Positions 65 through 24,596 of a stretch of DNA of 64,000 nucleotides are shown one piece after another. The notes below the pieces were generated by a model that had not been told where the DNA came from, did not search any database, and was given only the letters and a program-made list of their open reading frames with translations. The stretch covers positions 62,001 to 126,000 of the forward strand of contig JASCOH010000008.1 in NCBI GenBank assembly GCA_029959295.1, read 5' to 3'. Source of the DNA: Flavobacteriaceae bacterium PS02334 (GTDB lineage Bacteria; Bacteroidota; Bacteroidia; Flavobacteriales; Flavobacteriaceae). The position numbers and the translations under genes were made by a program. Within the stretch, counting starts at the first letter, position 1, and every line of letters starts with the position of its first letter.

Positions 65-104
65 GGCAGTCAGAGGAAGTGTTTGGCTTTGAGTGGCATA
101 ATGG
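65..104 (-). promoter_or_regulatory. ICE 10-bp phased GGC element, copy A
   Basis: GGC or GGA triplets begin at 65, 75, 85 and 95, exactly 10 bp apart. Read on the minus strand the core is GCCAAACACTTCC, one of six related sites in the ICE. Its orientation, judged from the copies before the methylase-helicase, DUF3945 and HTH operons, points to a reverse-strand operon starting left of the window. It also lies 75 bp before the XRE gene. The first 178 bases hold no gene that I can support. Confidence 0.55.
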
Positions 105-178
105 AAAGTTGAAAGCCATATTTATTAAACTATTTTTTCTTAAATTTGAACTATTTAGACAAGTCTTAAAAATTCAAA

Positions 179-478
179 ATGGCATTTGGGAAACGCATAA
201 AAGAATTGAGAGAAAGCAAGGGTTTGTTTCTTAGAGAAGTTGGAGCAGCTTTGGAGTTGGATAATGCTTTTATAAGTAAGGTAGAGAATGAGGAAAGGTT
301 GTTACCGAGAAAACATTTAGAAAAGCTTGCAGAATTTTTGAATGTTCCTATCAACGAATTATTGGTTTTGTGGCTTTCTGATAAAATGATTGAGTTATTG
401 CAAAACGAGCCATTAGCCGAACAAGCCTTAAAAATGACACAAAAAAGGTTGAAGCAGGAGGTAAGAAAAACTAATTAA
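179..478 (+). CDS. XRE-family helix-turn-helix transcriptional regulator
   Basis: A 99-residue protein with one Cro/C1-type HTH domain at about residues 5-62: an RIKELRESKG first helix, a REVGAALELDNAFISKVE turn-recognition region and an LPRKHLEKLAEFL closing helix. The basic C-terminal tail has no further domain. Proteins of this size often act as controllers placed before restriction or other defence genes in Bacteroidetes mobile elements. Only 18 bp separate its stop from the nuclease gene, so it is probably the first gene of a three-gene defence operon and may set its expression. No Shine-Dalgarno sequence is visible, which is normal for this phylum. The regulatory role is inferred; the fold assignment is firm. 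Confidence 0.85.
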   Translation: MAFGKRIKELRESKGLFLREVGAALELDNAFISKVENEERLLPRKHLEKLAEFLNVPINELLVLWLSDKMIELLQNEPLAEQALKMTQKRLKQEVRKTN

Positions 479-496
479 ATATGATAACCAGCTATT

Positions 497-2578
497 ATGA
501 AGATAATAAAAATTGAAGTTGAGAATTTTCGTTTGTTGAAGAATTTTTCAATGGACTTGGAAAAAGACCTTTCCTTAGTTATTGGAAAAAATAATACAGG
601 AAAAACCTCTATTCTTTCTGTTCTTGATAAGTTTTTAAATGAGAAAAGTAAATTTTCTTATGATGACTTGAATATAGATTTTAAAAACGAATTAGATGGT
701 CTTATAAAATCTACTGATGTTCCTGACGAATTTCTGCCCAAGGGTATTAAACTGAAAATTTATATTGAGTATAACGAGGCTGACGATTTATCAAATGTTA
801 GTAGAGTATTGATGGATTTAGACCCTGACAACAATAAAATAGTATTAGGATTTGAATATACAGTTACCTATACTGATTTTCTGAAAATTAGAACAGATTA
901 TGCTGCTTTTGCTGCAAGTGAAAAGGCTAAGGTAGATGGGGAAAAGAAAAACAAGCCCAGAGAATTAAAAGAATTTCTAAAGCAGGAATTAGATAGTTAT
1001 TTCCATACTCATAAGATGTCTTTTGAGTATGATATGGCTGCTAATACAGTCAATGATGCTAACTTCATAGACCTTGAAAGTGAAGGAATTAGCATTAAGG
1101 ATATAATTGGTTTCAAATACATTAGTGCAAGGCGCGATGTAACCAATAAAGAAAAAGAAAACACATTATCTAAACAAACATCCAGTCTTTATAAAAAGAA
1201 AGAAGATAATAGCGACAAAAACCAAGCTACTGAAAACTTTAAAGACCAACTTTCAGAAACCGATAGCACATTAAGTGATATATACAAAGACCTGTTCAGC
1301 GATGTAATAAAGAAAGTACAAGATTTTGGAGGAATAAAACTGAATGATACGGACATAGCAATAATTTCAACATTGCAACATAGGGAATTACTTGAAGGAA
1401 ATACAACCGTAGTATATACCCACGATGACCATAAGCTACCAGAACATTATAATGGCTTAGGTTATATGAACCTTATAAGTATGATTTTTGAAATTGAAAT
1501 TCTTGTCCAGGATTTCAAAAGGGATAAAGACAAAAAGCCCGCAGATATTAATTTGTTAGTCATTGAAGAACCTGAAGCACATACCCACCCACAAATGCAG
1601 TATGTCTTTATTAAAAACATAAAGAAATTACTTGCTGAAGGTATAAAAAGAGATGACGGAATAAATAGACCGCTTCAATACATAATTACAACACATTCAT
1701 CCCACATTGTTGCAGATAGTGATTTTGATGATATTAAATATTTGAAAGCAGAAGCTAAGAACAATGTAACTGCGAAAAATCTTTCAGATTTGAGAAAGCA
1801 ATATGATGATGACCCAAATCAATATCAGTTTCTAAAACAATATTTGACTATAAGTAGGGCTGAAATTTTCTTTGCCGATAAAGCGGTTCTAATCGAGGGA
1901 GATACAGAAAGAATATTGATACCTACTTTTATGCGAAAAGTTGATTTGGAGGAAGCAACTCGTTTAAAAGCAGAAGGTAAAGACGATACTTTTCTTCCAC
2001 TATTATCTCAAAATATATCAATCATCGAAGTGGGGGCTTATTCTCAAATCTTCGAAAAGTTTATCGAATTTTTGGGGATAAAATCTCTGATTTTAACGGA
2101 TATTGATGCTATCAAAGTTGTGAAACAAGATGAGAAAGGACAAGATGTTTGGGGGGCTTGCCCTGTTAATGAAGGTACGAAAACAAGCAATTCTGCAATC
2201 AACCATTTTCTGAAAGAAGTTACTTGGGATGATTTAAAGGCACTGCCTGTTGGAAACAGAACAATTCTAATTGGAAGTTCTACACTTTGTATATGTTATC
2301 AGCAGGAAGAAGACACCTATCACGCAAGGAGTTTTGAGGATGCTTTTATCCACATAAACCGAGTATTCGTAAACGGCAAGAAAGATGAATTTCAAGGGTT
2401 ACAAAACAGAAAATTGTTTGATGATGGTGTAAGTAATGCTTATATTTTAGCGGGTTCTTGTATTAAAAAGAAAACTCATTTTGCATTGGATATTTTGTAT
2501 CACAGCGATAAGGATTTTAGCAATTGGAATATTCCTGCGTATATTAAAAACGGCTTATTATGGTTGAAGCAAGATTAG
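497..2578 (+). CDS. gajA: OLD-family ATP-dependent endonuclease, Gabija GajA-like
   Basis: A 693-residue protein with an ABC-type ATPase head and a C-terminal TOPRIM nuclease. Walker A is GKNNTGKT (residues 30-37), Walker B LLVIEEPEAH (353-362), and the H-loop His is in ITTHSSH (about 400). The TOPRIM acidic residues are E467 in IEGDTE and D535/D537 in LTDIDA. A charged insertion at about 215-260 looks like a dimerisation or coiled segment. Class 2 OLD nucleases next to a UvrD-like helicase form the Gabija anti-phage system, in which GajA is a sequence-specific nickase held off by nucleotides. This protein is longer than the founding GajA (about 580 residues, from memory). The gene overlaps the helicase gene by 19 bp, suggesting translational coupling. 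Assignment to Gabija rather than to another OLD/UvrD lineage is inference. Confidence 0.8.
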   Translation: MKIIKIEVENFRLLKNFSMDLEKDLSLVIGKNNTGKTSILSVLDKFLNEKSKFSYDDLNIDFKNELDGLIKSTDVPDEFLPKGIKLKIYIEYNEADDLSNVSRVLMDLDPDNNKIVLGFEYTVTYTDFLKIRTDYAAFAASEKAKVDGEKKNKPRELKEFLKQELDSYFHTHKMSFEYDMAANTVNDANFIDLESEGISIKDIIGFKYISARRDVTNKEKENTLSKQTSSLYKKKEDNSDKNQATENFKDQLSETDSTLSDIYKDLFSDVIKKVQDFGGIKLNDTDIAIISTLQHRELLEGNTTVVYTHDDHKLPEHYNGLGYMNLISMIFEIEILVQDFKRDKDKKPADINLLVIEEPEAHTHPQMQYVFIKNIKKLLAEGIKRDDGINRPLQYIITTHSSHIVADSDFDDIKYLKAEAKNNVTAKNLSDLRKQYDDDPNQYQFLKQYLTISRAEIFFADKAVLIEGDTERILIPTFMRKVDLEEATRLKAEGKDDTFLPLLSQNISIIEVGAYSQIFEKFIEFLGIKSLILTDIDAIKVVKQDEKGQDVWGACPVNEGTKTSNSAINHFLKEVTWDDLKALPVGNRTILIGSSTLCICYQQEEDTYHARSFEDAFIHINRVFVNGKKDEFQGLQNRKLFDDGVSNAYILAGSCIKKKTHFALDILYHSDKDFSNWNIPAYIKNGLLWLKQD

Positions 2579-4491
2579 ACTTAGAACCCGAAGTACAGGG
2601 GATTTTTCAATCAATTGATGAAGGAAGAAATTTTCTGTTAAGTGGTGGTGCAGGAAGTGGTAAAACTTATTCGTTGGTAAGTGTTATTCGTCAGGTAATA
2701 GCTGAAAACCCAACAGTAAAAGTAGCTTGTATGACATATACAAATGCGGCAGTAAAGGAAATCGAAGAAAGAGTAAATCACAAGAACCTAAATGTATCTA
2801 CAATTCACGACTTCTTATGGGATAATATAAAACACTTTCAAAAGGAGCTTAAAGAGGCTATCATTTCATTAGCAAACAATGAAGATGTTGGTAAAATTTC
2901 AATTGATGATGCAAATCCTATTCCTGAAAACTATTTTCATATTTTACCGGACGGAATACAGTATAAAGAATTTGTACGATTGCGTGAAGGAATAATTTCT
3001 CACGATGAATTGCTCATAGTTGCAAACTATCTTTTTGATAAATACCCCAAACTTAGCAGTATTGTAAAGGATAAATACAAGTTCATTTTTATTGATGAAT
3101 ACCAAGATACTAACAAGGCTGTTGTAGATACCTTTCTTGCACATTTTAAGAAAAGTGAAAGAAAAAATATTATTGGTTTCTTTGGCGATGCAATGCAATC
3201 AATTTACGAAGATGGTATTGGAAATTTAGATGAATATAAAGGAGATGGTGTAGATACTGTAAATGAAATTCCCAAAAAACAGAATAGAAGAAACCCTCAA
3301 CTGGTAATTAATTTGGCAAATAAACTTCGGACTGACGGTATTACACAAGAACCTTCTAACGACCCTAATGCACCCAATATGGTTGAAGGCGTAGTAAAGC
3401 AAGGTACTGTACTGTTTCTACATTCTAATGATGGCGATATTAACAAGGTTGAAAAATTCTTAGAAGAAAATTATAGCTGGAATTTCAATAATTCAAAAGA
3501 AACAAAGGAACTGAACCTTACTCATAATTTGATAGCAGGCAAAGCAGGGTTTAGAACACTTATGGATATTTATGATGATGACCCTGTACTTGGATTGAAA
3601 TCTGAAATTCTTGAAAAGATAAAATACAATAAGAAGAACAACAGACCCGAAATTGAAATAAGCGAGGACGATACATTTGATGCAGTCGTTGATAGGTTTC
3701 AATTAAAAAACAGGCAAAGGCAACTAAAAAAGGATATTTTATTAGCTGACCCTGTAAAAGCGGAATTGTACAACCAATTGAAAGATAGACCATTCTCTGA
3801 AGTAAGAAAGATGTACTTGAGCAAAGATGCTCTTATAGACGACAAAAAACAAGATGAGAATGATGAAAGCAAGAAAGGTTCAAAACGAGATAACCTTATA
3901 AAGCACTTGTTTAAAATACAAACGAATATTTCTCTTTACCAAAACAAGCGATATAATGAATTTTTAAGAGCAACGGATTACCGTTTTATGGTAGTAAGTA
4001 TTGCGAAGAAAAGGGAGCTTAAAGAAAACATCGAAAGCCTTATAAATGTCGGAGATAAAACTATTGAAGATATAATTACCGAAGCTAACGAACGAGGGAT
4101 TTGTATAATTGACGATAAGCTCCTTGATTTTAAGGAGAAAAAAGAGTATTTGTATAATCGTGTAAAAGAAGTAAAGTTTAGTGAGTTTCAAAAACTTTAT
4201 GAATATTTAGAAGGACAAACACCTTTTTCGACACAACATAAAACAAAAGGTGCTGAATTTGATAATGTTTTGGTTGTTCTTGACAATGGAGGTTGGAACA
4301 ATTATAATTTTGGAAATCTTTTTTTAGAAACAGGTTCAGCAACGGTATTAGACAGAACACAAAAAATATTTTATGTCTGCTGCACAAGGGCTAAGGAGAA
4401 TTTAGCAGTTTTCTTTCACAATCCTGATGCAGACGTAATAGCGAAAGCCAAAGAATGGTTTGGAGAGGACAATGTAATTGATATTAGTTAA
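2560..4491 (+). CDS. gajB: UvrD/Rep-like superfamily 1 helicase, Gabija GajB-like
   Basis: A 643-residue SF1A helicase. Motif I is GGAGSGKT (residues 29-36), motif II FIDEYQDT (about 177-184), motif III GDAMQSIY, motif V HKTKGAEFDNV and motif VI VCCTRAKENL (about 606-615). In Gabija, GajB binds GajA and is thought to be activated by DNA ends made by GajA, consuming nucleotides. The start codon lies inside the end of the nuclease gene, in another frame, which supports the two acting together. A long charged middle region (about residues 360-480) is less typical of housekeeping UvrD and accounts for the extra length over known GajB (about 490, from memory). The gene ends 30 bp from the convergent traD gene. 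It is AT-rich compared with the adjoining transfer genes, which suits separate acquisition. Confidence 0.8.
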   Translation: MVEARLDLEPEVQGIFQSIDEGRNFLLSGGAGSGKTYSLVSVIRQVIAENPTVKVACMTYTNAAVKEIEERVNHKNLNVSTIHDFLWDNIKHFQKELKEAIISLANNEDVGKISIDDANPIPENYFHILPDGIQYKEFVRLREGIISHDELLIVANYLFDKYPKLSSIVKDKYKFIFIDEYQDTNKAVVDTFLAHFKKSERKNIIGFFGDAMQSIYEDGIGNLDEYKGDGVDTVNEIPKKQNRRNPQLVINLANKLRTDGITQEPSNDPNAPNMVEGVVKQGTVLFLHSNDGDINKVEKFLEENYSWNFNNSKETKELNLTHNLIAGKAGFRTLMDIYDDDPVLGLKSEILEKIKYNKKNNRPEIEISEDDTFDAVVDRFQLKNRQRQLKKDILLADPVKAELYNQLKDRPFSEVRKMYLSKDALIDDKKQDENDESKKGSKRDNLIKHLFKIQTNISLYQNKRYNEFLRATDYRFMVVSIAKKRELKENIESLINVGDKTIEDIITEANERGICIIDDKLLDFKEKKEYLYNRVKEVKFSEFQKLYEYLEGQTPFSTQHKTKGAEFDNVLVVLDNGGWNNYNFGNLFLETGSATVLDRTQKIFYVCCTRAKENLAVFFHNPDADVIAKAKEWFGEDNVIDIS

Positions 4492-4510
4492 CCTCATTCT
4501 TAAAACAATA

Positions 4511-4534
4511 GGGAGTTTGCTCACACAAACTCCC
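4511..4534. terminator. Hairpin between convergent gajB and traD
   Basis: GGGAGTTTG pairs perfectly with CAAACTCCC around a 6-nt loop. It follows gajB by 20 bp and its far arm overlaps the last codons of traD on the other strand. There is no strong U-run, so termination efficiency is uncertain. Confidence 0.5.
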
Positions 4535-5156
4535 CAATGTCAAAATCACTCAAATCACTTTTCCGCAAAGTGGAAGAACTGTCCTCCGTTTCAGATAAGA
4601 GTGTACTATCCAAAAGCTCGGCAATTTTTCGGGAAGCACCCTCAACGGAATTTTCCAGCAGGCTGAATAATTCAGTTCCCTGCAATTTTTGAACTATCGC
4701 AACCGCTGTTTCCTTTTGAGATTGTTCCAAATTTTCTTTTTGGAGCAATCCCCCCACGGAGCTTAGTTCGTCATAGGTAACCCCTTGGGCAAGACTGTCA
4801 TCGCCACCGGATATTCCGTACCTGTTCCATTCTTCTTCCTCTTCCTCCAAATCAGGCATATTACTGAAAACTTCGTCCAGTTCTTCCTGCGGAATTTGAA
4901 TACCTACGTTTTCATTTTCGTCGTATTCGATGTCTAAATTATCAGGGTTTATCTCTTGTTCCTCTATTTGGCTTTCATTGGCAGCGTTTGGCACTGAAAG
5001 GCTTCTTACAGGCTTGGGCTGACCCATAATATCGGGCAGGTTCGGATTAACCTTTTCCTGCATTGGCTTATGCTCCGACCTTTTTTTAATGACAATCTTG
5101 TCCTGCACCAGCAGGGCAATGACTATGAGCAGGCATATCACAATTACTGTTTCCAT
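4521..5156 (-). CDS. traD: Conjugal transfer protein TraD (ICE family)
   Basis: A 211-residue protein with one N-terminal membrane segment (residues 3-18, VIVICLLIVIALLVQD), a short basic stretch and then a long, strongly acidic soluble region (EEEEEEWNRYG at about 111-121). This layout matches the protein annotated TraD in Bacteroidetes conjugative transposons, coded third after the ParA-like TraA and the DUF3408 protein. Its start is 3 bp from the end of the DUF3408 gene, so the three form one operon. The biochemical role is unknown; a cell-envelope position is likely from the membrane anchor. In related elements traE follows directly, but here the gene meets the convergent defence cassette instead. 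Confidence 0.65.
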   Translation of the reverse strand: METVIVICLLIVIALLVQDKIVIKKRSEHKPMQEKVNPNLPDIMGQPKPVRSLSVPNAANESQIEEQEINPDNLDIEYDENENVGIQIPQEELDEVFSNMPDLEEEEEEWNRYGISGGDDSLAQGVTYDELSSVGGLLQKENLEQSQKETAVAIVQKLQGTELFSLLENSVEGASRKIAELLDSTLLSETEDSSSTLRKSDLSDFDIGEFV

Positions 5157-5159
5157 AGC

Positions 5160-5600: not shown

Positions 5601-5604
5601 AGGG

Positions 5605-6372
5605 CTATAATTGAATGATTTTTAAAAATTCGTCTATGAACAGGTCTAACTGACTGGCTTTCATCAAACGTTCATCGGGAGGCATTACGGTAGAACGGAA
5701 AACGGTTTTGCTGTCCGTTTCGCTTTCTTTGCGGAAACGGGTGCTATTCTTGATTTGGCTTTTCATCAGACTTAACCCTAATTGCGCAATAAGCTGGTTA
5801 TACACGCCATATAAGGGTGTGCTTTCCCTACCATCAACCTGGTTCCAAAACAGGTTAATGGTTTCTATGGACGTTTCCCCTTTTTTCATAATCACATCCT
5901 GCAAAAGCTGTGTGAAGATGAGCGTACTTTCCATTACCACACGGTCTGCCGTGATGGGCGTGAAAATGTGGTGCATTCCTGCCAATGCTTTCAGAATGCC
6001 GGGCGTATTTACAGTTCCGGGCAGGTCAAAAAATACCACATCAACCGGAACGGAAGAAGTGTTTACAAATTCGTGAGCCGCTTCCAATACGCTATCCGCT
6101 TTGTACTGCATAATGGGATAGGCTTTTTTGTTGATGGTGGTAAATTGTTTGTACGCCAGCTTTTTCAAAGCCTCGTTTTCCATTACCATTGCTAAATCCC
6201 TTGTCTTCATTTTCATCAAGCTGTGCTGTGGAAAATCCGCATCGAATACGGCTACGTTGTAGCCCAACCGATAGTGCATCGCACTTGCAACAAGCGTTGT
6301 AAAGGTGCTTTTGCCTACACCGCCTTTTTGAGATGAAAAGGCGATAAATACTGTTTTGTGTTTTGCATTCAT
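5605..6372 (-). CDS. traA: ParA-family ATPase (TraA of Bacteroidetes ICEs)
   Basis: A 255-residue ParA/MinD-type P-loop ATPase. The deviant Walker A is KGGVGKST (residues 16-23), the A' region VFDADFPQHS (about 42-51) and Walker B VVFFDLPG (about 112-119). It is the first gene of a reverse-strand operon traA-DUF3408-traD with 3-4 bp gaps. Such proteins are annotated TraA or 'conjugal transfer protein' in this ICE family and may position or partition the excised circle. The 700 bp upstream contain short dispersed repeats that could be its centromere-like site, and two copies of the phased ICE element, both oriented toward this operon. Family call is firm; role is inferred. Confidence 0.85.
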   Translation of the reverse strand: MNAKHKTVFIAFSSQKGGVGKSTFTTLVASAMHYRLGYNVAVFDADFPQHSLMKMKTRDLAMVMENEALKKLAYKQFTTINKKAYPIMQYKADSVLEAAHEFVNTSSVPVDVVFFDLPGTVNTPGILKALAGMHHIFTPITADRVVMESTLIFTQLLQDVIMKKGETSIETINLFWNQVDGRESTPLYGVYNQLIAQLGLSLMKSQIKNSTRFRKESETDSKTVFRSTVMPPDERLMKASQLDLFIDEFLKIIQL

Positions 6373-6676: not shown

Positions 6677-6749
6677 CCTATCTATGCCCTTATATCTATC
6701 TGTTTGCAGGCACAAAGAAATGTAGATATATAGGTGCTTTCATTGTCGT

Positions 6750-6789
6750 GGCAGTGTTTGGCGTTCAAAGGCAGCGTTTGTCCGGGTAC
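6750..6789 (-). promoter_or_regulatory. ICE 10-bp phased GGC element, copy B (double)
   Basis: GGC triplets start at 6750, 6760 and 6770, with GTC at 6780. On the minus strand two cores are present, GACAAACGCTGCC and GCCAAACACTGCC, 20 bp apart. It is the strongest copy and sits in the divergent region between the traA operon and mobA. Confidence 0.6.
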
Positions 6790-6885: not shown

Positions 6886-7017
6886 GGACGGCATCGAGCC
6901 GTTTTTCCCTGTTACATCCAATCCGTCCCGCAGGGCGGATTTTTGTGTTCATCGGAACACGGCAAGTTGTGTTTTGAGCATCTCGGAATGATTTCCGATG
7001 CTCAAAACAACTTGCCC
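6886..7017. other. oriT: Candidate origin of transfer: four consecutive hairpins
   Basis: Four inverted repeats follow one another upstream of mobA: CGGC/GCCG at 6889-6901, AATCCGTCCC/GGGCGGATTT at 6920-6942 (one G-T pair), GTGTTC/GAACAC at 6945-6960 (perfect), and a long one at 6961-7017 whose arms pair over about 27 bp with two 2-nt bulges around a TGAT loop. In Bacteroidetes mobilisable elements oriT lies directly upstream of the mobilisation genes. The nick site cannot be located by reading. The first two stems also carry T-runs and could act as terminators. Confidence 0.5.
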
Positions 7018-7081
7018 TTTGCAGGGGGCAGAAAACACCTTCCGAAGTCAGGGTTTTGTATGGATTTAAAATGGATTAGTG

Positions 7082-8814: not shown

Positions 8815-8854
8815 GCCAAATACTGCCATACAACGCCACTGGCTGCCACTTTCT
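8815..8854 (+). promoter_or_regulatory. ICE 10-bp phased GGC element, copy C, before traG
   Basis: On the plus strand GCC triplets begin at 8815, 8825, 8835 and 8845. The core GCCAAATACTGCC is at 8815-8827, about 82 bp before the traG start. Orientation relative to the gene is the same as in copies D, E and F. Confidence 0.6.
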
Positions 8855-8909
8855 TATAGCCACTCCATAGAGCCTTTAAATTCACGCCCGAACATTAAAA
8901 CTTGAAATA

Positions 8910-10907
8910 ATGCAGGGAGAAGACGATTTAAGAGGGCTTGCCAAGATAATAGCTTTTATGCGGGCAGTCAGTATTCTTTTGGTGCTAATGCATCTTTATT
9001 GGTTCTGCTACGGTTTCTTTTTAGAACGTGGGTGGACGTTGGAAGTAATCAACAAAATACTGGGCAATTTCGACAGAACAGCAGGTTTGTTCTCACATAC
9101 CTTATACACCAAAGCATTTGCTTTGGTTTTGTTGGCTTTGAGTTGCTTAGGGACGAAAGGCGTAAAGAATGAGAAGATAACTTGGTCTAAAATATACGTG
9201 GCTTTGGGCATTGGCTTTGTGCTGTTCTTTCTTAATACACCACTGTTAAAGCTATCCCCGGCAACAGGAACTTTCCTGTATATCCTTACTATCTCGTTAG
9301 GTTATATCGCTTTGCTGATGGCGGGTGTATGGATGAGCCGATTGCTGCGCACTAACCTGATGGACGATGTTTTCAACAACGAAAACGAGAGCTTCCAACA
9401 GGAAACCAAGCTGATGGAAAACGAGTATTCCGTCAACCTGCCCACCAAATTTTACTACAAAGGCAAGTGGAATAATGGTTGGATAAACATCGTAAATCCT
9501 TTCAGGGCAACTATCGTGTTGGGTACTCCGGGTTCAGGAAAATCCTATGCCATTGTAAACAACTACATCAAGCAGCAGATTGAGAAAGGCTTTAGTATGT
9601 ACATCTACGATTTCAAATTCGACGACCTTTCTACCATTGCCTACAATCACTTACTGAAGCATCGGGACAAGTATAAAATTCAGCCGAAATTCTACGTGAT
9701 AAATTTCGACGACCCACGCAAGAGCCACCGTTGCAATCCACTCAATCCCGGCTTTATGACGGACATTTCAGATGCTTACGAAGCGGCATATACCATAATG
9801 CTGAACCTTAATAGGTCGTGGATACAGAAGCAAGGGGATTTTTTCGTGGAAAGCCCAATTATCCTGCTTGCAGCTATTATTTGGTATCTGAAAATATATG
9901 AGGATGGTAAGTATTGTACGTTCCCGCACGCTATTGAATTGCTGAATAAAAAGTATTCGGATGTATTCACAATTCTTACCTCATACCCCGATTTAGAAAA
10001 TTATTTGTCGCCCTTTATGGATGCTTGGCAAGGCGGCGCACAAGACCAGTTACAAGGGCAAATTGCATCGGCAAAAATTCCCTTATCAAGAATGATAAGC
10101 CCGCAGCTTTATTGGGTAATGACTGGGGACGACTTCACGCTCGACATCAATAACCCGAATGAACCTAAGATTTTATGCGTGGGCAATAATCCCGACCGCC
10201 AAAATATCTATTCGGCAGCATTGGGCTTGTACAATTCAAGGATTGTAAAGCTCATCAATAAAAAAGGACAGCTAAAGAGTTCGGTTATCATAGATGAGCT
10301 GCCCACAATTTATTTTAGGGGACTGGACAACCTTATCGCAACGGCGAGAAGTAATAAGGTGGCTGTTTGCCTGGGCTTTCAGGACTTTAGTCAATTAACC
10401 CGTGATTACGGCGACAAAGAGAGTAAGGTAATTCAAAATACGGTAGGTAATATATTTAGTGGTCAGGTGGTTGGCGAAACGGCAAAAAGCCTTTCAGAAC
10501 GTTTCGGTAAAGTATTGCAGAAACGCCAAAGTATGACGATTAACCGAAATGATAAATCTACCTCCATTTCCACACAGTTAGATAGCCTTATTCCGGCTTC
10601 CAAAATATCAACGCTCACACAGGGTATGTTCGTAGGTTCTGTATCGGATAACTTTGACGAGCGTATCGAGCAAAAGATATTTCACGCCGAAATTGTGGTG
10701 GATAATGAAGAGGTTGCTGCCGAAACAAAAGCCTATCAGAAGATACCGGAAATTTTATCTTTTGTAGATGAACAGGGCGAGGATAAAATGAAGCAGGAAA
10801 TTGAAGCCAATTACAAGCAGATAAAATCAGATATTGTACAGGTTATCGAAATTGAATTGGAGCGTATCAAGAACGACCCCAAATTAAAACATCTTATACA
10901 TGATTAA
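8910..10907 (+). CDS. traG: TraG/VirD4-type coupling protein (MobC)
   Basis: A 665-residue type IV coupling ATPase. Four N-terminal membrane segments (about residues 16-40, 65-82, 94-112 and 122-146) precede the motor domain. Walker A is GTPGSGKS (about 204-211) and Walker B lies in SSVIIDELPTIYF (about 453-465). The C-terminal part contains a QNTVGNIFSGQV segment typical of TraG/TraD ATPases. It would connect the relaxase-DNA complex to the transfer channel at the inner membrane. CTnDOT-type elements call it MobC or TraG. It follows mobB by about 100 bp and ends convergently to the hxlR gene, with a perfect hairpin between. Length is normal for Bacteroidetes. Confidence 0.9.
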   Translation: MQGEDDLRGLAKIIAFMRAVSILLVLMHLYWFCYGFFLERGWTLEVINKILGNFDRTAGLFSHTLYTKAFALVLLALSCLGTKGVKNEKITWSKIYVALGIGFVLFFLNTPLLKLSPATGTFLYILTISLGYIALLMAGVWMSRLLRTNLMDDVFNNENESFQQETKLMENEYSVNLPTKFYYKGKWNNGWINIVNPFRATIVLGTPGSGKSYAIVNNYIKQQIEKGFSMYIYDFKFDDLSTIAYNHLLKHRDKYKIQPKFYVINFDDPRKSHRCNPLNPGFMTDISDAYEAAYTIMLNLNRSWIQKQGDFFVESPIILLAAIIWYLKIYEDGKYCTFPHAIELLNKKYSDVFTILTSYPDLENYLSPFMDAWQGGAQDQLQGQIASAKIPLSRMISPQLYWVMTGDDFTLDINNPNEPKILCVGNNPDRQNIYSAALGLYNSRIVKLINKKGQLKSSVIIDELPTIYFRGLDNLIATARSNKVAVCLGFQDFSQLTRDYGDKESKVIQNTVGNIFSGQVVGETAKSLSERFGKVLQKRQSMTINRNDKSTSISTQLDSLIPASKISTLTQGMFVGSVSDNFDERIEQKIFHAEIVVDNEEVAAETKAYQKIPEILSFVDEQGEDKMKQEIEANYKQIKSDIVQVIEIELERIKNDPKLKHLIHD

Positions 10908-16300: not shown

Positions 16301-18770
16301 GACACTTTACGGAAAAGTCATCGGAGCTTTCGGAATAATGAACCAGTACATCAGCATCGAATAAATGCGAAGCAAACCGGGCATAAATTCCGGTAGGTAT
16401 CCACCTTTCGCCGAGGTTAAAATCCAACTCTTCAAATTCAATCCGTCTTGGTCGGGCTTCTTCTAAAGCGGTAAGGCTTTCTTTCGCTTCCTTATCATCA
16501 GGATTGTTTTCGAGATAGGTTCGTACTTCATTGGCTTTCTCAACAACGTTGCCCGCTATCCAACGTTCGGCTATTTCGTATTCCTGTTGCAATGGATTGT
16601 AAAACAACCGCCCGTGCAAGGCTTCTTTCAACGTGTCGGCAGGCAGGCTGCTGATTTCGGACATAAAATCCAAATCCACGCTTCCGTATTTGTTCAGCGA
16701 TGCTGCTAAAGCCTCTTCGGGATTGTCGGTTGCTAATGTGGTAGTAGAAAAACTTACAGGGCGGCTGAATATATCCGCTTTGTGAATTACGCCCCCGATA
16801 ATACGCTCCAGATACGGTATTTCCTTACCTGCGCTGTCTGTCTTTATGAGCTTGGCATTGTCGGCAGCATTCAGATTGCCGTATTTTTTAGTAAAGGCAT
16901 CATAAAGGAAATTCAGTGTTTCCCGTTCTTCCTTGTGTTCGCTTTGCTTTTCTGCTTCTTTTTGGTACAGGTTAATGTAACTATCCCTTACCGCAATGTA
17001 GGCTTCGGCTCTTGCCTTTTGTAAAGTCGGTAATTGCAATGGATGAAAGGTTGCTGATGATTTTTCTTCGCTTCTTTCAACATCTTGCAGATAACCTACC
17101 CAACCATTATCTACAACAAGGCAATCATTACGGTGGAACGATTGCAGTTCGCCACTATACGGAGCAGGTTCGGGAATGGTATTAATATTGATGTTGGGAA
17201 CGGCTGTCTTATCAGACTGGCCATTCCCGTTTATTTGTGAAAACAGGTCACCGATAGCTTCCTGTTTTTTACCATTCGTTTGGGTAGCTCTATTGGCAGT
17301 ACCATTAGATTTTAAGGGCATATAGGTTTGGCTAAACAAGTCGGGCTGACGACCTATTGTGCCTCTTCTCTTGTTGGTGCTTTGCCTCTTTGTTTGGGTA
17401 GCTCTTTTAGGTGGAGCGAGAACCATTGCAGGTTCGCCCGCACTTTCAAACAGGTCGAAAATGCTTAGTTGTTTCAATTCCTGCGGGCTTTCCTGATGGA
17501 CTACCGGAGTTGTTACAAATTGCGGCTTTTGCTGAATGATTACAGGGTCGATAACCGGAGGTGTAACCTTTGGTTCAATCGGGATTTGTATAATAGGCTC
17601 ATCGTTCCGTTCGCCTCTGTATAAACCCAAATTCAGATGCTTACCGAAATCTTCGGAAAGCATTTGTTTCAAATCTTTGGCAATCCCATCAACACCGTTT
17701 TTATGCGTATAGATTAAGGCAGGCTGTCCGTATGGGTCAGTATCTAATTTATAGTCTGTATGCACAATCCTTGTACTGTTTTGAAACAAGGCATTGCCTG
17801 GTGTATTGTATTCGGTTGGATTGCTTCGGCAAAACAGATCTTCCCTGTCGGTCAGATTTTCTTTTGCCGTATTTTTTTGCAGGATAATCAGGTCGCTGCC
17901 GACTTCCGTACCTGCATATTCTGTAAACAGGTTGTTAGGTAATCTTACAACCGATACCAAATTATTATCCTGCATTAACGCCCTGCGTATGGGTTCGTTT
18001 TTAGGGCTGTTCAATATGCCTTGCGAAGTGATATAAACTAATAAACCACCCTCACGGAGCATATCAGCACCTTTCAGAAAAAAGTAATTGTGTATGCTTC
18101 GGGCAGCCTGTATTTTTGCATCGTCCTTGCTTCGGGAATAAGAAAGGTCGAATACGGAAGTATCGCCAAAAGGAATGTTACTGGCTACTACATCATAGCT
18201 GTTTTGTTCCCTTTCGGGAATTTCCTCAAAACCGCTTACACGTACATTGCTTTCGGGATAGAGCTGCTTTAAAATTTTGCCTGTTAGCAAGTCTTTTTCA
18301 TAGGCAGTAACATTTGCTTTTTGACTTTCCGAAAAGGATTGTACAAATGAGCCGATACCTGCGGAGGGTTCGAGGAATTTATCAATATACAGACCGCTAT
18401 CACGCAAGGCTGATGAAATGGCATCTATGACCTTTGGCGGGGTATAAAAAGCCGTTAAAACAGAACTTTTCATACTATCCACGTACCTGCGGTACTGCTT
18501 ATCGTCTTCGGAATTTTCTTTGAGTAGTTGGTGGAGTTCCTGCGTAATCGGAAAGAGGTCGTGTTCCGTTTTTCTCCAATTATTGATGTCTATTTCGTTT
18601 ACAATAGGGTTCAGAACAAATTTAAGACCGCCAAATCCGCTGTATTGCATCATTAGCAGTCTTTCGCCTACGGTGGCTTGCCGTTTCTCCTTTTCCAGTT
18701 TAAAAACAATTCGCAGGGCATCAATATTCTGTTGGAGATGGAACCGCTTACTGAAGCCCATTTTCCTCAA
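13329..18770 (-). CDS. N6-adenine methylase-helicase fusion, DarB-like ICE protein
   Basis: A 1813-residue giant fusion. The N-terminal methyltransferase has TAFYTPP (107-112), the SAM-binding EPSAGIG (134-140) and the catalytic SNIPFGD (197-203), a variant of NPPY used by this family. A linker (about 400-560) carries repeated KRATQTKRQ-like segments. The SF2 Snf2-like helicase has VGAGKT (about 966-971), DESHQF (about 1132) and motif [13 protein letters not shown] (about 1465-1475). The C-terminus has a coiled segment and a TraC-like region. Similar fusions occur in Bacteroidetes ICEs and as DarB of phage P1, where they protect incoming DNA from restriction; that role is inferred here. The start overlaps the DUF1896 gene by 23 bp, so the two are probably co-translated. 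Confidence 0.85.
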
Positions 18771-19185
18771 TCCATATTGCGATGGTTCCCGTCAGTTCGG
18801 TATAGAGTAAATCGAACTCAAACCCATAGGCGAAATCATCAGTTAATTCATAGCCTGCAAATACAGGTTCGCAAACAGGGAACATTTTCAGGGCGAACGG
18901 TCGGAGTTCCTCATCTGCCATTATGGTATCAAACTCATTGCATACCACTTTAAAAACCGTGTCGAACTTGGAGAAGTGTAAGCCCTCAAACAATATGTAA
19001 TTGGCTATTTCATTGCATTGCTCTACGGCGTTTCCCGAACGGAACGCCCCTTCATAAGCGTTGGCAGCCCACGAAGACCGTTGGTCTATAAATTTTTGGT
19101 CGTGTGCCTTTTCGGGGAAGCTGCTGTTTAATAATTCTTGCAGTCGTAATCTGAAATACGATAGGTCTTTTTGCTGTACGTCCAT
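18748..19185 (-). CDS. DUF1896 family protein
   Basis: A 145-residue acidic protein matching DUF1896, a family found almost only in Bacteroidetes mobile elements just before the large methylase-helicase. Recognisable features are [12 protein letters not shown] near the start, [22 protein letters not shown] in the middle (about 41-62) and a [17 protein letters not shown] end. No catalytic motif is visible. The stop overlaps the methylase-helicase start by 23 bp, so a stoichiometric or chaperone-like partnership with that protein is plausible but unproven. It is the first gene of this two-gene unit and has a phased ICE element 70-110 bp upstream. Confidence 0.8.
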
Positions 19186-19254: not shown

Positions 19255-19296
19255 TGCAGGGTTTGGCGTTGAGAGGCGGTATTTGGCGTAATGGGC
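19255..19296 (+). promoter_or_regulatory. ICE 10-bp phased GGC element, copy D, before DUF1896
   Basis: TGC at 19255 and GGC at 19265, 19275 and 19285 keep a strict 10-bp phase. The minus-strand core GCCAAATACCGCC (19275-19287) is about 90 bp upstream of the reverse-strand DUF1896 start. Confidence 0.6.
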
Positions 19297-19303
19297 AATA
19301 AAA

Positions 19304-19326: not shown

Positions 19327-19331
19327 CATTT

Positions 19332-20213
19332 TTATGGCTTGTTAAGGATTTGGAGCATCCTGCCGACTTCAATATCCATACGTGAAAAGGCAAACCATTT
19401 TTTGCCCAGGTCTTTGAGTGATGCCCCGATATGGTAAAGCTCTGTATTGTCAATAATTAAAAAACGGTCGTGGGCATCGGAGAAAATCTCAATATCTATT
19501 GCAGGATATTGGCTGTTGTAGCGTTGTAAATCCAACCGTAACTGGTTACTCATACTCTTGGTAAGGATAGTGGCAGTTACATTATCATTGCGCTTACCAA
19601 ATAAAGTAAGCACCGTATCATCCACATAATTATCAAGCAGGATAATGGAACTTCCGGCACTACGGATAATATCGGAAACAAAAGCATAGGCATCAAAAAC
19701 CTGCCCGTTGTAAAAGATACCTTTTTCGCTGTGCAGCTTGTCGCTTTCCAAAGCCTTAAAAATCTCTTCAAATTTTTGGTCGGCTTCCAGTTGCTTCAAT
19801 TCAATATTATCTAACCGATGAAACAAAGAAGCATTGCTAATGAGCATACGCCTCATTTCTACAAAGGCTTCCATTATTTGAACACTCATTTTTACTGCTA
19901 TATCGGAACGGAGTATGGCAGACGCCATTGCAACCCCCTGTTCGGTAAAAACATAGGGTAAATAACGTCTGCCACCGTAGTTTAAACTTGAGGTTCCAAT
20001 TTGGAACCTCAAGTTTTCAACTTCCTCTTCAGTCAGTTGAAAGCAGAACGAAGCAGGAAAACGCTCGATATTCCGTTTTACGGCTTTGTTGAGGTTCTTT
20101 GTTTCCACCTGATACAAGACAGCAAGGTCGCTATCCAACATTACTTGTTTGCCCCGAATGGTGTAAATCAAGTTTGTTATTTCTTTGGGTACAATAGACG
20201 ATTTATTTTCCAT
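19332..20213 (-). CDS. ORF6N (KilA-N-like) protein with C-terminal PLD-type domain
   Basis: A 293-residue protein. The N-terminal ORF6N DNA-binding domain (about residues 8-100) contains VMLDSDLAVLYQVETKNLNKAV and RFPASFCFQLTEEE, a phage-derived module. The C-terminal half looks like a single phospholipase-D-type domain: SIILLDNYVDDTVL followed by HDRFLIID and HIGASLKDLG, an HxR-type variant of the HKD motif. ATG 20213 is chosen because it overlaps the topoisomerase stop by 11 bp (coupled translation); an upstream in-frame ATG at 20261 lies well inside that gene. A nuclease or DNA-binding role in ICE defence or regulation is possible. The function is unknown. Confidence 0.75.
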   Translation of the reverse strand: MENKSSIVPKEITNLIYTIRGKQVMLDSDLAVLYQVETKNLNKAVKRNIERFPASFCFQLTEEEVENLRFQIGTSSLNYGGRRYLPYVFTEQGVAMASAILRSDIAVKMSVQIMEAFVEMRRMLISNASLFHRLDNIELKQLEADQKFEEIFKALESDKLHSEKGIFYNGQVFDAYAFVSDIIRSAGSSIILLDNYVDDTVLTLFGKRNDNVTATILTKSMSNQLRLDLQRYNSQYPAIDIEIFSDAHDRFLIIDNTELYHIGASLKDLGKKWFAFSRMDIEVGRMLQILNKP

Positions 20214-22296
20214 TACGCTTATTGCTTTTGTTTTTTTCAAACTCAAAGGAGGTTTCTGCATTTTCTTTCAGCACGATGTAAGCATCGAATTTCTTTCCGG
20301 CTTTGCTTGTCATTCCTTTGATTAAATCCGTTTTACCTTTATTGATAAGGCTTACAATATTTTCGATACTGATTTGTACCCCGCAGACGGTACGGAACTG
20401 CACCCAGTTACAAGCCTCATCAGAACATTTCACAATCTTATCACGAATGATGAGTTGCTGACTTTTGCATTTAGGACAGGTCAATTTCGGCTGATTAGTA
20501 TTTGCAATGGAAGTTTGCAGCAGTTCATCAGTAATAGATTTCGCATAGGTTTCCATTTCCTTTTGAAATGTCCCGGCATCCGCTTCGTTGTTTTCGATTT
20601 TCTGCAATGCCAGTTCCCATTCGGCGGTCATAGCCACATCTGCAATCTTGCGTTCTTTGACAAGTCCGTACACCTGCAATCCTTTTTCCGTAGGTATTAA
20701 AGAACGTTTATCCCTTTGGACATAATTACGGGTAAACAAGGTTTCAATAATGGCGGCTCTTGTAGCCGGAGTACCGATACCAATATTTTTCAGGGCTTTC
20801 CGTTCTTCCTCGTTTTCAATTTCTTTTCCGGCGGTTTCCATAGCCGATAAAAGCCCGGCTTCTGTATAAAGCACTGGTGGTTTGGTCTGTTTTTCCAAAA
20901 CGGCAGCTTCCTTTATTTTGAGTTCGTCGCCTTTATTTAGTTCGGGTAGTTCCTGCACTGGCTCTTCGCCATCATCGGTAAAACTTCCTTTGATGGAACG
21001 CCAACCCGCTTCCTGAATTTTACAGCCTTTTGCTGTAAAATCGTAGTGCAACACCTGCAATGATACATCGGTTATTTCTTTGACACAGGCTTGTGATAAG
21101 GCTTCGAGCAGGCGAAGTGCAATCATATTATAAATCTTATCTTCGTCTGCATTCAGTACAGACGGCACTTTGTCGGTAATCAATAAACCGTGATGGTCCG
21201 TTACACGGAGGTCATTCACGATACGTTTATTGAACCGTCCCCATTTGATTTTGGCAAGGGCTTGTTTGCAATCTTCACGGTTCTGCAATGCCCGCACAAG
21301 GTTGGGAATTTCTGCCCACATATCTTCAGGTATGTATTTGCTTCCGGTACGGGGATAAGTGATAAACTTCTTTTCGTACAGGCTTTGCGCAATATTGAGC
21401 GTTGCTTCAGCAGATAATTTTAGTCTTTTGTTGGCTTCCTTTTGCAAGCCTGTCAAATCAAAAAGTAAAGGCGGTTGTTCTGTAACGCTTTTGGTTTCTA
21501 CCGATGTAACCGTCGCAATTTCACTTCGCTGAATGGCTTTCAGCGTATCATCAGCAAGATGCTTTTCATCCCACTTGGTAACGGAAATGCTTTTGAAATC
21601 AACCTGTGCTTTGTTATGTAGCAATTGTATCTGCCAGTATTTCTTTACCGAGAAATTTTTGTTTTCGAGGTAGCGTTTACATATCAAAACGAGTGTAGGG
21701 GTTTGCACTCGTCCGAGCGAATAAATGCCATTGCCTGCGGCAATGCTCAACGCCTGTGTAGCGTTGATGCCTACAAGCCAATCGGCACGGCTCCTGCCTT
21801 GTGCAGCCTGATATAATCCGTCAAATTCTTTTCCGTTTTTCAGGTTCTCAAAGCCCTGCTTAATTGCCTTTTCTGTAAGCGAACTAATCCAAAGGCGTTC
21901 AAACGGCTTGTTGCATTTCAGGTATTCATAAATGTACCTGAAAATGAGTTCGCCCTCACGACCTGCATCGGTTGCCACAATAATGCTATCGCTTTTATTG
22001 AACAGTTCTTTGATTACTTTCAGTTGCTTTAATGCGCCAGCATCGGCAGTATAGCCTTTATCTTTTTTGACCTTGCGAACGGTCAATAAAAAAGGGTTGG
22101 GCAATATGGGCAAAGTGGCTTTGTCAAATCCCGAAATACCGTAATCTTCGGGCATTCCCAGTCCTATTAAATGACCGAATGCCCACGTAACAAAATAGCC
22201 GTTACCTGTCAGGTAGCCATCCCTTTTTTCAGATGCTCCCAACAAGCCGGCTATCTCCCTTGCTACGCTTGGTTTTTCTGCAATAATTGTTTTCAT
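20203..22296 (-). CDS. topB: DNA topoisomerase III (type IA), ICE-encoded
   Basis: A 697-residue type IA topoisomerase. The TOPRIM domain starts at MKTIIAEKPSVAR and has VATDAGREGELIF (about 110-122). The active-site Tyr is in FITYPRTGSKYI (about residue 314). The C-terminus has one zinc ribbon, CPKCKSQQ with CSDEACNW. The enzyme relaxes and decatenates single-stranded regions. In CTnDOT the equivalent gene, exc, lies in the excision operon and codes an active topoisomerase needed for excision in vivo. It is 6 bp from the DUF3945 gene stop and overlaps the ORF6N gene start, so all are one reverse operon. It is complete. Confidence 0.92.
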   Translation of the reverse strand: MKTIIAEKPSVAREIAGLLGASEKRDGYLTGNGYFVTWAFGHLIGLGMPEDYGISGFDKATLPILPNPFLLTVRKVKKDKGYTADAGALKQLKVIKELFNKSDSIIVATDAGREGELIFRYIYEYLKCNKPFERLWISSLTEKAIKQGFENLKNGKEFDGLYQAAQGRSRADWLVGINATQALSIAAGNGIYSLGRVQTPTLVLICKRYLENKNFSVKKYWQIQLLHNKAQVDFKSISVTKWDEKHLADDTLKAIQRSEIATVTSVETKSVTEQPPLLFDLTGLQKEANKRLKLSAEATLNIAQSLYEKKFITYPRTGSKYIPEDMWAEIPNLVRALQNREDCKQALAKIKWGRFNKRIVNDLRVTDHHGLLITDKVPSVLNADEDKIYNMIALRLLEALSQACVKEITDVSLQVLHYDFTAKGCKIQEAGWRSIKGSFTDDGEEPVQELPELNKGDELKIKEAAVLEKQTKPPVLYTEAGLLSAMETAGKEIENEEERKALKNIGIGTPATRAAIIETLFTRNYVQRDKRSLIPTEKGLQVYGLVKERKIADVAMTAEWELALQKIENNEADAGTFQKEMETYAKSITDELLQTSIANTNQPKLTCPKCKSQQLIIRDKIVKCSDEACNWVQFRTVCGVQISIENIVSLINKGKTDLIKGMTSKAGKKFDAYIVLKENAETSFEFEKNKSNKRNGK

Positions 22297-22302
22297 ACTG
22301 TA

Positions 22303-23781
22303 TTACATTTTTCTGCCTTTGGATTTTGCAGGAGTTTCGGGTTTTTCCTGTTTTTCCTGCTGCTTTTCATTTTTCGGTCTTTGTTGCCCGGACTTCAAAG
22401 GCTCTTTGATATTCTTGGTTGCTTCATTGGTCTTACCCTCTGAATTAACGGCAGTCTGTGTTTTATGGGCTTCGGCAGTTTCTACCCGTGCTTTATACTG
22501 ACCGGGAAATTCAAAGTTGGTCTTTCCGGTATCTTTGTCGAAAGTGATATAACCCTTGTAGGGTTGGTCTTTCTTATCTTTCAGTTCCACATATATGGTT
22601 TGCCCGGCTTTGAACTTGTTGTACTGCTCATCATCCAGTTCTTTGCCCCTGAAAGTTTTCGGGGCTTCCTGCGGTTGGCTTTGCTGATTATTCTGCTGAT
22701 TGCCCTGTTGATTGTTTTGTTGGTTGGTTTGCGCCTGCTGATGGTTATTGCTTCTGTCAAACAGGAACTCTACATATCGTTTGTCCGCATTAAACTGTAC
22801 CGTTGCAGAAAACTCTGTTCCTTTGGTGGAAATCATACCTTCCAGATAAAGCGGTTTGCCTTCCATTAAGGTTTGCTTTTGCTCATCATTCAGTTTCACA
22901 CCTTTTAATTCATCAGGTATTTTTATAAAGTCAGTTCGCAATGCTACTACATCATTGGTAAGCCTGTCAATGCTGATAATAGACGGCATCAATTCGCCTG
23001 TTTTGGAATTTACCAAATTGACTACACGCCCCATATTGCCCGTTTCAAGCAGGTTTTTCTTGTCTTCATCTGTAAACTTGTGACCGAAAAACTCAAAGTG
23101 GAGGTTAGGCTCTTTTTTAATACCGTGTATCGCGACAATAACATTGCCGTCTTCCGCTTGCTGTAAAGACAAGCGGGCATCCGTGCGCAGAATAGAACCG
23201 CCGAGGTTAATACCAATCGGTAAGAGTTCATTGGTTTTGTAACCTCTTAATAAAGGGTCAAGCAGGTTTCTTTTTTCGAGGTATTCTTTGCTTAATCCGA
23301 GGTTTTTCATTGTATCCCAATCAATCTGCTCCGGCTTATAGCGATATTCGCTTGTTTCCGTTGTTGTTTGTGCTGTTGCCATATTATTTTGATTTTCTTG
23401 TTTTTTATCAGGTTGCGGTTCTGCCTTTACCTCGTGTTCTTTCAGCACTTTATCGCCATCGGGAGTAGGCTTATCTACGTGCTTTTGCAATTCCTGTGCT
23501 TTATCAGCAGCAATAGGGGCAGGTACTTTGAAGAAAGTAAAATTGGTAGGGTTTTTTAACTGGCTGAAAAAATTGGAAAAGAAGTTTGAAAAGAAATCGC
23601 CGCTTTTGTCCACACGCATAAACTGGTTTTGGTTTTTCTTCATGGGGTCAACTGTTTCCATTTTACCATTTTCGTCGATACTCTTTACTGCCTGGATTTT
23701 CATTTTCTCTTTATCCAGTACGAGTAATATGTCCGAAAGCTGTTCGGGCATTTCCTGTTTATTAGTTGTTTCTTCGCTCAT
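22303..23781 (-). CDS. DUF4099/DUF3945 domain protein
   Basis: A 492-residue protein of the DUF3945 group found in Bacteroidetes ICEs next to topoisomerase III, in the position of orf3 of the CTnDOT excision operon. Visible blocks are DWDTMKNLGLSKEYLEKRNLLDPLLRGYKTNELLPI (about 155-190, DUF4099), and repeated GKxLxxEQxxxLxxGKxxYLEG units of DUF3945 type (about 295-320 and 380-405). Between the two units lies a Gln/Asn-rich linker (about 345-370). The C-terminus is very basic (PAKSKGRKM). The gene is 6 bp from topB. The repeats suggest a scaffold or DNA-binding role; function is unknown. Confidence 0.75.
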   Translation of the reverse strand: MSEETTNKQEMPEQLSDILLVLDKEKMKIQAVKSIDENGKMETVDPMKKNQNQFMRVDKSGDFFSNFFSNFFSQLKNPTNFTFFKVPAPIAADKAQELQKHVDKPTPDGDKVLKEHEVKAEPQPDKKQENQNNMATAQTTTETSEYRYKPEQIDWDTMKNLGLSKEYLEKRNLLDPLLRGYKTNELLPIGINLGGSILRTDARLSLQQAEDGNVIVAIHGIKKEPNLHFEFFGHKFTDEDKKNLLETGNMGRVVNLVNSKTGELMPSIISIDRLTNDVVALRTDFIKIPDELKGVKLNDEQKQTLMEGKPLYLEGMISTKGTEFSATVQFNADKRYVEFLFDRSNNHQQAQTNQQNNQQGNQQNNQQSQPQEAPKTFRGKELDDEQYNKFKAGQTIYVELKDKKDQPYKGYITFDKDTGKTNFEFPGQYKARVETAEAHKTQTAVNSEGKTNEATKNIKEPLKSGQQRPKNEKQQEKQEKPETPAKSKGRKM

Positions 23782-23845
23782 AATCTGAAAATTTTAAAAG
23801 TTCTCTTTCGAATGTAAAGGAAGCCTTCACTGATTTGCACTATGT

Positions 23846-23880
23846 GGCACTCAAAGGCAGTGTTTGTCACTTATTGGCAT
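23846..23880 (+). promoter_or_regulatory. ICE 10-bp phased GGC element, copy E, before the DUF3945-topB operon
   Basis: GGC at 23846 and 23856, GTC at 23866 and GGC at 23876 are exactly 10 bp apart. The minus-strand core GACAAACACTGCC (23856-23868) is 75 bp upstream of the DUF3945 start and overlaps the stop codon of the preceding HTH gene. Confidence 0.6.
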
Positions 23881-24175
23881 CCAGTTTGGGCAAAGGCGGG
23901 TTAAAACTTTCCCTGATGAACTGATGCACATCGGATAGTTTGTAATACAATTTTCCGCTGATAGTATAGTAAGGCAACTTACCTATGGAGCGATACCGTT
24001 GCAGGGAACGGTTACTGATTTTCAGCATTTGCAATAAATCCTGATTATCCAGTAATTCTTCGCCATCAATGCTGTTTCGCTTCTTTTGTAAATCGTCTAT
24101 GTGGTTGCCGAGAATGTCAAGCCTATCCATTATGCGTTCCATCCACGCCACAAATTCCATTTTGTCAATGTTCAT
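23867..24175 (-). CDS. Excisionase-like helix-turn-helix protein (MerR/HTH_17 type), second copy
   Basis: A 102-residue protein. The DNA-binding part is NQDLLQMLKISNRSLQRYRSIGKLPYY followed by a GKLYYKLSDVHQFI wing (about residues 43-87), an HTH_17/excisionase-family fold. The N-terminal third is a helical MEFVAWMERIMDRLDILGNHIDDLQKK segment. Pairs of such genes in this position correspond to xis2c/xis2d of CTnDOT, which are needed for excision and also activate transfer genes. It starts 12 bp after the upstream HTH gene and its stop codon lies within the phased element of the next unit. The excisionase role is inferred from fold and synteny. Confidence 0.75.
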   Translation of the reverse strand: MNIDKMEFVAWMERIMDRLDILGNHIDDLQKKRNSIDGEELLDNQDLLQMLKISNRSLQRYRSIGKLPYYTISGKLYYKLSDVHQFIRESFNPPLPKLDANK

Positions 24176-24187
24176 AGCGTTATGATT

Positions 24188-24541
24188 TTATTTGTTCCCT
24201 GATTTTAATTTTCTGCCTTGTTCTATGTAGCTTTTGCCTTTCGCCATAAGCTGCTCCACGTACTCATCGGTAGTTTGCACGGCATTGGCGTTAAGCATTT
24301 CCTTGATAGCTCCAATCGTGTAGTAATACTGTCCGTACATTTTTGAAAAAGCTATCTGCCCGTTGTTGCGCATACGCCACAATGTTTTTTCGCTGATGTG
24401 GAGGTACTGGCAGACTTCGTGATTGTTGAGCCACAAACTATCGTAGCTCGTATCTTCCAGTTTCAGGATATAGTCGCTAATGGCTTTCAACCTTTCATTA
24501 AGATGCTGCCACACTTCTTCGTCAACTGTTATAATATTCAT
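24188..24541 (-). CDS. Excisionase-like helix-turn-helix protein (HTH_17 type), first copy
   Basis: A 117-residue protein with a HTH_17-type domain at about residues 38-85 (LNNHEVCQYLHISEKTLWRMRNNGQIAFSKM, then a YYTIGAIKEMLN wing). It is related to the next gene, so the two probably arose by duplication. It is the first gene of the reverse excision block. The 250 bp upstream contain a phased element, two 20-bp direct repeats and the terminator of the second rteC, a compact control region similar in layout to the RteC-controlled promoter of the CTnDOT excision operon. Role by analogy: recombination directionality and activation of transfer. Confidence 0.75.
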   Translation of the reverse strand: MNIITVDEEVWQHLNERLKAISDYILKLEDTSYDSLWLNNHEVCQYLHISEKTLWRMRNNGQIAFSKMYGQYYYTIGAIKEMLNANAVQTTDEYVEQLMAKGKSYIEQGRKLKSGNK

Positions 24542-24583
24542 TGCGCTGTTTTTTAATGTTCACAGGGCAAAATTCAGAAGTGT

Positions 24584-24596
24584 GGTAGTGTTTGTC
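24584..24596 (+). promoter_or_regulatory. ICE core element, copy F, before the HTH operon
   Basis: The minus-strand core GACAAACACTACC lies 43 bp upstream of the first HTH gene. Only two triplets keep the 10-bp phase, so it is the weakest of the six copies. Confidence 0.45.

Follow-up and report, generated by a model that had tools for sequence, protein, structure and literature searches.

Phased arrays and genes of the element

The 64,000-nucleotide stretch analysed here, hereafter the window, covers positions 62,001 to 126,000 of contig JASCOH010000008.1 of Flavobacteriaceae bacterium PS02334 and contains part of an integrative and conjugative element (ICE), in which a short motif recurs in arrays with a period of 10 bp. 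We computed the sites of this motif, their conservation, strand and spacing, and their register with the promoter. A preliminary description had listed the cores of the motif, all of which were found again at the places listed, although the list was not complete since it missed an array within a traC-like gene.

The array at 55..87 (minus strand) belongs to the traE-like (DUF4134) operon, which reads leftward out of the window toward a gene outside it (L010:19668-19973), and not to the HTH_3 gene at 179; the -7-like box CACCTTTG is located at 35-28, at an offset of 19 bp past the site. The array of the tra operon (6749..6782, minus strand; -7 box TTTCTTTG at 6720-6713, offset 29) points to traA, the ParA-like first gene of that operon (5605..6372, minus strand), rather than to mob. 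The coupling protein (8910..10907, plus strand; YWFCY and T4SS-DNA_transf domains), which the preliminary description called traG and which is annotated MobC in the record of the related element CTn214, has its array at 8815..8848 on the plus strand, with the -7-like box TAAATTCA at 8877-8884 (offset 29). Further arrays, both on the minus strand, precede the DUF1896 and methylase-helicase genes (19255..19287; -7 box TAATTTTA at 19225-19218, offset 29), of which the DUF1896 gene occupies 18748..19185 (minus strand), and the DUF3945-topoisomerase genes (23836..23868; -7 box TACATTCG at 23816-23809, offset 19), that is, a DUF4099/DUF3945 protein (22303..23781, minus strand), situated as the DUF3945 gene is in CTn214, and a type IA topoisomerase (20203..22296, minus strand).

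The array missed earlier lies inside the coding region of the traC-like gene (4521..5156, minus strand) at 4969..5002 on the minus strand, where it reads GCCTTTCAGT GCCAAACGCT GCCAATGAAA GCCA and is followed by the -7-like box TAATTTAG at 4941-4934. Arrays at the same operon position were also found in Bacteroides and Parabacteroides elements. No significance was reached in a synonymous-site test of this copy (permutation p 0.32), and the case for this copy thus rests on its phase and on the arrays at the same place in other elements.

HTH2 (23867..24175, minus strand; PF12728, 1.9e-9), the proposed binder of the arrays, and HTH1 (24188..24541, minus strand) are helix-turn-helix (HTH) proteins of the HTH_17 family, which by gene order we take to be the counterparts of Xis2d and Xis2c of the element CTnDOT, respectively. 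The core noted earlier at 24584-24596 is present at their common promoter, but its layout is different from that of the other sites: half arrays stand back to back at 24584..24616 (minus strand), with GACAAACACT ACC on the gene strand and GCCAATGCTT GCCAATTGG on the other, and overlap the promoter, whose -7 box GAATTTTG lies at 24575-24568 (minus strand, offset 8), so that the core would cover about -33 to -21. Among 27 dereplicated HTH1 promoters, a half site back to back with the core was found in 24 and two such halves in 13, while the forward two-repeat form was present in 21, all 21 with the -7 box at offset 8. The overlap of the core with the promoter suggests feedback at the HTH1-HTH2 operon.

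Repeat unit, conservation and promoter register

Reading of the flanks showed the unit of the motif to be G(A/C)C(A) repeated directly four times, every 10 bp, that is, two cores 20 bp apart. With at most 2 mismatches, the 13-mer core had 10 matches in the window in comparison to 3.68 ± 1.94 expected (10 or more in 0 of 100 shuffles). It was rejected as the unit because on its own it is weakly enriched in the whole genome: with at most 1 mismatch it had 50 matches genome-wide in comparison to 28 for the reversed control, a modest enrichment. Decisive was the two-core unit with its 20-bp period, which had 11 matches in the bacterium's own genome, in at least four elements related to each other. 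When up to 3 mismatches were allowed, the phylum sample had it in 6 of 296 genomes, although the match in one of these (G055) is a simple repeat, and in 3 of 395 genomes of the class sample, in comparison to no match of the reversed two-core control in any of the 296 genomes or in the class sample. A pattern of four G[AC]C(A) words, scanned at periods of 7 to 14, gave 7, 12, 8, 8, 1, and 0 distinct matches by locus group at period 10, and 1 match altogether at all the other periods. The motif, once taken as a four-repeat unit, is thus far beyond chance and the 10-bp phasing is real, as the preliminary description had held for its GGC/GCC triplets. Two matches were set aside: one at C44:378883 lies inside a long chromosomal reading frame, and one at locus L189, in a genome with no HTH2 match, was taken as chance, the 45 bases listed having no -7 box and the open reading frames listed no recognised HTH gene.

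The position-matrix scan of related elements suggested earlier was carried out with a matrix built from 26 sites and applied to 80 loci fetched by HTH2 similarity, with a match threshold of 9 (in the background, one position in 191,744 scored above 8). As many of these loci are near-copies of one element, distinct upstream regions were counted. The results showed that an array on the gene strand is present in 41 of 41 distinct held-out DUF1896 upstream regions, at -100 to -105 relative to the start codon (-90 in one case), and in 50 of 54 for DUF3945, 48 of them at -85 to -88; with copies included, the figures are 54 of 54 and 77 of 81. At the same threshold no match was found in the control upstream regions of RteC_24791 (0/54), RteC_12459 (0/3), BIG_Mtase (0/39), ORF6N (0/49), and topo (0/50), nor upstream of HTH2 (0/56) or, for the pair form, HTH1 (0/55). 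HTH3b genes, of the second HTH pair outside the window, carried a site in 5 of 5 cases, four of which are training sites. Elsewhere in 2,977,144 positions there were 18 matches of at least 9, and the six above 20 are probably further real sites.

Within the window no 33-bp unit scored 10 or more to the right of 23,868, in agreement with the earlier remark that the chromosomal part holds no copy. The claim that the motif heads nearly every ICE operon was too wide, as no same-strand unit precedes either rteC gene, ORF6N, mob, or the defence cargo.

High-scoring sites outside the core promoter families were also observed at L127 (16604 and 18592), L134 (17858), L144 (20200, plus strand), and L064 (14963-14995, minus strand), some with a -7-like box at 29, and cargo genes may, judging by these sites, have joined the switch. 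An orphan HTH3b/HTH4 pair at L026 7940-8633 (C11:17.9 kb) stands amid ordinary chromosomal genes with the array and -7 box still in front.

For the promoter register, 62 offsets between the site and the Bacteroidota -7 box (TAnnTTTG-like) were scanned in site-bearing promoters, of which, after removal of near-copies, 37 were left for DUF1896 and 26 for DUF3945, training loci included. The -7 box peaks at 29 bp past the site for DUF1896, the coupling protein, HTH3b, and traA, and at 19 bp, one turn closer, for DUF3945. The mean over the four 29-bp families was 4.66 of 6 at offset 29 in comparison to 2.72 at the next best. At least 5 of 6 bases were matched at the best offset in 36/37 DUF1896, 25/26 DUF3945, 5/5 HTH3b, and 7/8 traA promoters, and the traE sites have CACCTTTG or GACATTTG at offset 19 in the five loci listed. 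The -33 place held TTTG/TTG in 1 of 83 dereplicated promoters, a figure that covers site-bearing promoters only. In Flavobacterium psychrophilum the -7 box spans -12 to -5 (PMC9723704), so that the array would lie at about -74 to -42, or -64 to -32.

HTH2 as candidate binder and the rival explanations

We consider it likely that the motif serves as operator for a regulon that extends across the element, with HTH2 as its probable binder and activator. The operator, four 10-bp direct repeats on one face of the helix, would end 29 or 19 bp ahead of the -7 box, in a promoter of sigma-A type that has no -33 box. Each repeat would take up one subunit of the Xis2d-like HTH2 in a head-to-tail arrangement, similar to that of the MerR-like BldC on its direct repeats, and the bound multimer would replace the missing -33 contact and thereby activate the tra, coupling protein, traE-side, DUF1896-methylase, and DUF3945-topoisomerase genes and the second HTH pair, while the back-to-back layout over the HTH1-HTH2 promoter would give feedback, probably repression. 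With common operators, expression of the excision operon would turn on the genes for excision and those for transfer at the same time. The shared regulator on one helix face that was postulated earlier fits very well, given that strand and distance to the -7 box are fixed and that the distance, where it differs, is shifted by 10 bp; among the binders then named, the excisionase-like HTH protein is favoured and RteC is disfavoured.

Sequence comparisons favour HTH2 as the best candidate binder. Genomes G174 and G002 have strong sites at traA, the coupling protein, and DUF1896, and at E 1e-8 HTH2 itself is their only match to the HTH2 profile (which in other genomes also picks up HTH4-type genes) or to the HTH3b query, with no HTH1 match. 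In seven other elements the DNA-binding domain of HTH2 (37-90) shares 85-100% identity with that of the window (whole HTH2 63-100%), in comparison to 39-85% for whole TraB and 84-92% for ORF6N, although a domain is here set against whole proteins, which is not like for like, and ORF6N would fit too. An HTH2 match is missing in 7 of 17 genomes with the coupling gene, and their coupling loci have no matrix match of at least 10, a co-occurrence confounded by the fact that these genomes are distant in all genes.

Besides these two limits and the scope of the -33 count, several observations weigh against HTH2 as the activator. For the coupling gene at offset 29, 5 of 6 bases were reached in 0/7 promoters and 4 of 6 in 6/7, and offset 29 is barely above offset 48 (3.71 vs 3.57). 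Genome G469 has a weak HTH2 relative and no site at its coupling locus, genome G000 has several elements, so that trans effects blur its cis evidence, and the HTH2 of CTn214 is only 42% identical. The Bacteroides-type offset is 28, 31/39 or 40, not 29, and the mob-tra array is missing in 3 of 8 named Bacteroidota records (two Prevotella and one Hymenobacter, one region being guessed and unannotated). The HTH2 profile matches BldC (6ama) weakly (E 0.021), with two S-layer proteins slightly ahead, and the abstract of the Xis2d paper reportedly describes dyad symmetry, not direct repeats.

The same sites and the same protein could serve for repression, the bound multimer silencing the promoters, as the core that would overlap the HTH1 promoter at about -33 to -21 might indicate. 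Elsewhere, however, the predicted polymerase contacts lie downstream of the array and the -33 box is absent, as expected of activator-dependent promoters, and we regard general repression as rather unlikely. A different binder is conceivable in HTH1, in the HTH3b/HTH4 pair, or in a complex that combines HTH2 with any of these proteins, since all are HTH_17 proteins, and the HTH3b genes, including the orphan pair at C11:17.9 kb, keep their sites; this appears improbable in view of the strong sites of G174 and G002, where HTH1 has no match and the HTH3b query finds only HTH2 itself. In addition, among the four other elements with an HTH1 gene, three show 72% identity to the HTH1 of the window.

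Plasmids have partition proteins that bind arrays and regulate promoters, and a comparable control was considered here, in which TraB (DUF3408) would bind the arrays as a repressor or centromere-binding protein. By eye, TraB resembles a ribbon-helix-helix partner of the ParA-like TraA, and the ParA/DUF3408 genes adjoin a site that is among the strongest and recur in the eight elements under comparison. TraB was rejected as the binder, and this control is given little chance, because its types have diverged (39-42% identity between the window and C11, G269, G002, and G174) whereas the traA array is 79-94% identical, and because P. nigrescens has kept DUF3408 genes and a MipZ-like gene with no array at mob-tra. 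Binding by RteC could be argued from the two rteC genes in the window and from the control of CTnDOT excision and transfer genes by RteC (PMC1976400), yet RteC stands beside a related coupling gene with no array in the 20-kb stretches of G049 and G214, the C69 element has the array and no RteC match in the surrounding 60 kb, and RteC is described as activating excision functions that then lead to transfer-gene activation (PMC5729914). RteC was thus also rejected, and its role as the binder is very improbable.

The code was also followed into more distant elements. In those of G230 and G416 the bases between the words differ, while the 10-bp phase and the traA -7 box, at offset 28, are kept. 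The mob-tra array is present in 5 of the 8 named records (CTn214, B. ovatus NZ_CP081918, and three P. distasonis elements), with 15 or 16 of 16 letters matched at period 10 in comparison to 12 or fewer at other periods where scored. These Bacteroides and Parabacteroides arrays, too, have different bases between the words while the phase of 10 bp is retained. The B. ovatus element and one from P. distasonis also have arrays before a DUF3945 or DUF4099 gene and inside the gene at the traC position, which is named by position only and has no Pfam match. We lean somewhat toward the broader view that a recombination directionality factor (RDF) is the master activator of an entire conjugative-element family, through an operator code readable in the sequence: four G(A/C)C(A) turns in register with a -33-less promoter, at 19 or 29 bp in Flavobacterium-type and 28, 39 or 40 bp in Bacteroides-type elements, including the promoter hidden inside traC. 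This code would have survived the divergence of the two types, even as the sequence between the repeats was replaced.

Other features of the element were also observed. A Gabija pair (497-4491; GajA 2.2e-287, GajB 2.8e-239), with a small HTH_3 gene ahead, is placed between the traC and traE-like genes and splits the tra operon, and an AbiH-like gene (L010 7622-8602) lies near the integrase end. A long inverted repeat at 6950-7030, between tra and mob and with look-alikes in G021 and CTn214, is possibly the origin of transfer (oriT). Genome G000 carries at least four related elements, on contigs C11, C33, C68, and C69, with five coupling genes. HTH2 is identical to the window's in 35 of the 80 loci (L070-L104), from many genera, and one element lineage seems to be widely spread.

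Comparison with known systems

Direct repeats at about one helical turn (period 10) give the arrays the form of a BldC-like operator. BldC of Streptomyces (PDB 6AMA, named in PMC11963761) is a small MerR-like winged HTH protein, as HTH2 would be by its HTH_17 domain, and forms head-to-tail multimers on direct repeats, with 4 subunits on a four-repeat site (PMC5859096); it differs in its AATT-rich 9-bp consensus, in the weak sequence match given above, and in that no mobile element is involved. RdfS of ICEMlSym R7A, an HTH_17 RDF of an ICE, oligomerises and also binds promoter regions, but no consensus motif was found by its authors (PMC11963761), whereas the consensus here is strong.

The closest likeness is to CTnDOT, which was compared through CTn214, a record used in its place and called nearly identical to it in mechanism by its authors (PMC10865816). 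The gene set and order are similar, with two HTH genes, DUF3945, topoisomerase, DUF1896, RteC, and mob opposite tra; in the consecutive HTH pair, DUF3945, and topoisomerase genes and in the presence of an RteC gene, the window's element agrees with the CTnDOT type. Identity to CTn214 in the aligned parts is 28% for HTH1 and 49% for the topoisomerase, next to the 42% for HTH2, and the CTn214 record has rteA-rteB two-component genes annotated with tetQ. A published title places Xis2d at the mob-tra intergenic region, where the array lies.

The CTnDOT cascade, in which RteA/RteB act on RteC, RteC on the excision proteins, and these on tra and mob, is known (PMC1976400, PMC5729914, PMC9956884). 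In comparison to CTnDOT as described there, the present element has a defined 10-bp-phased direct repeat at six places of the window, one inside traC, plus the HTH1 variant, in a fixed -7 register. No such element-wide code is mentioned in the excerpts of the CTnDOT literature, the Xis2d paper itself being outside their scope. Our literature search, mostly at title and abstract level and with the Xis2d and transfer-operon papers outside its scope, gave no description of this operator and no sequence code for how the CTnDOT excision proteins also switch on the transfer genes, and among the matches listed for a text search with the motif letters none concerned Bacteroidota mobile elements. CTnDOT, which spreads tetracycline resistance, has been reported from 80% of natural isolates of Bacteroides (PMC10865816). 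A readable operator would predict the member operons of the switch in any genome, and the question of the activator can be tested with one protein and one DNA fragment.

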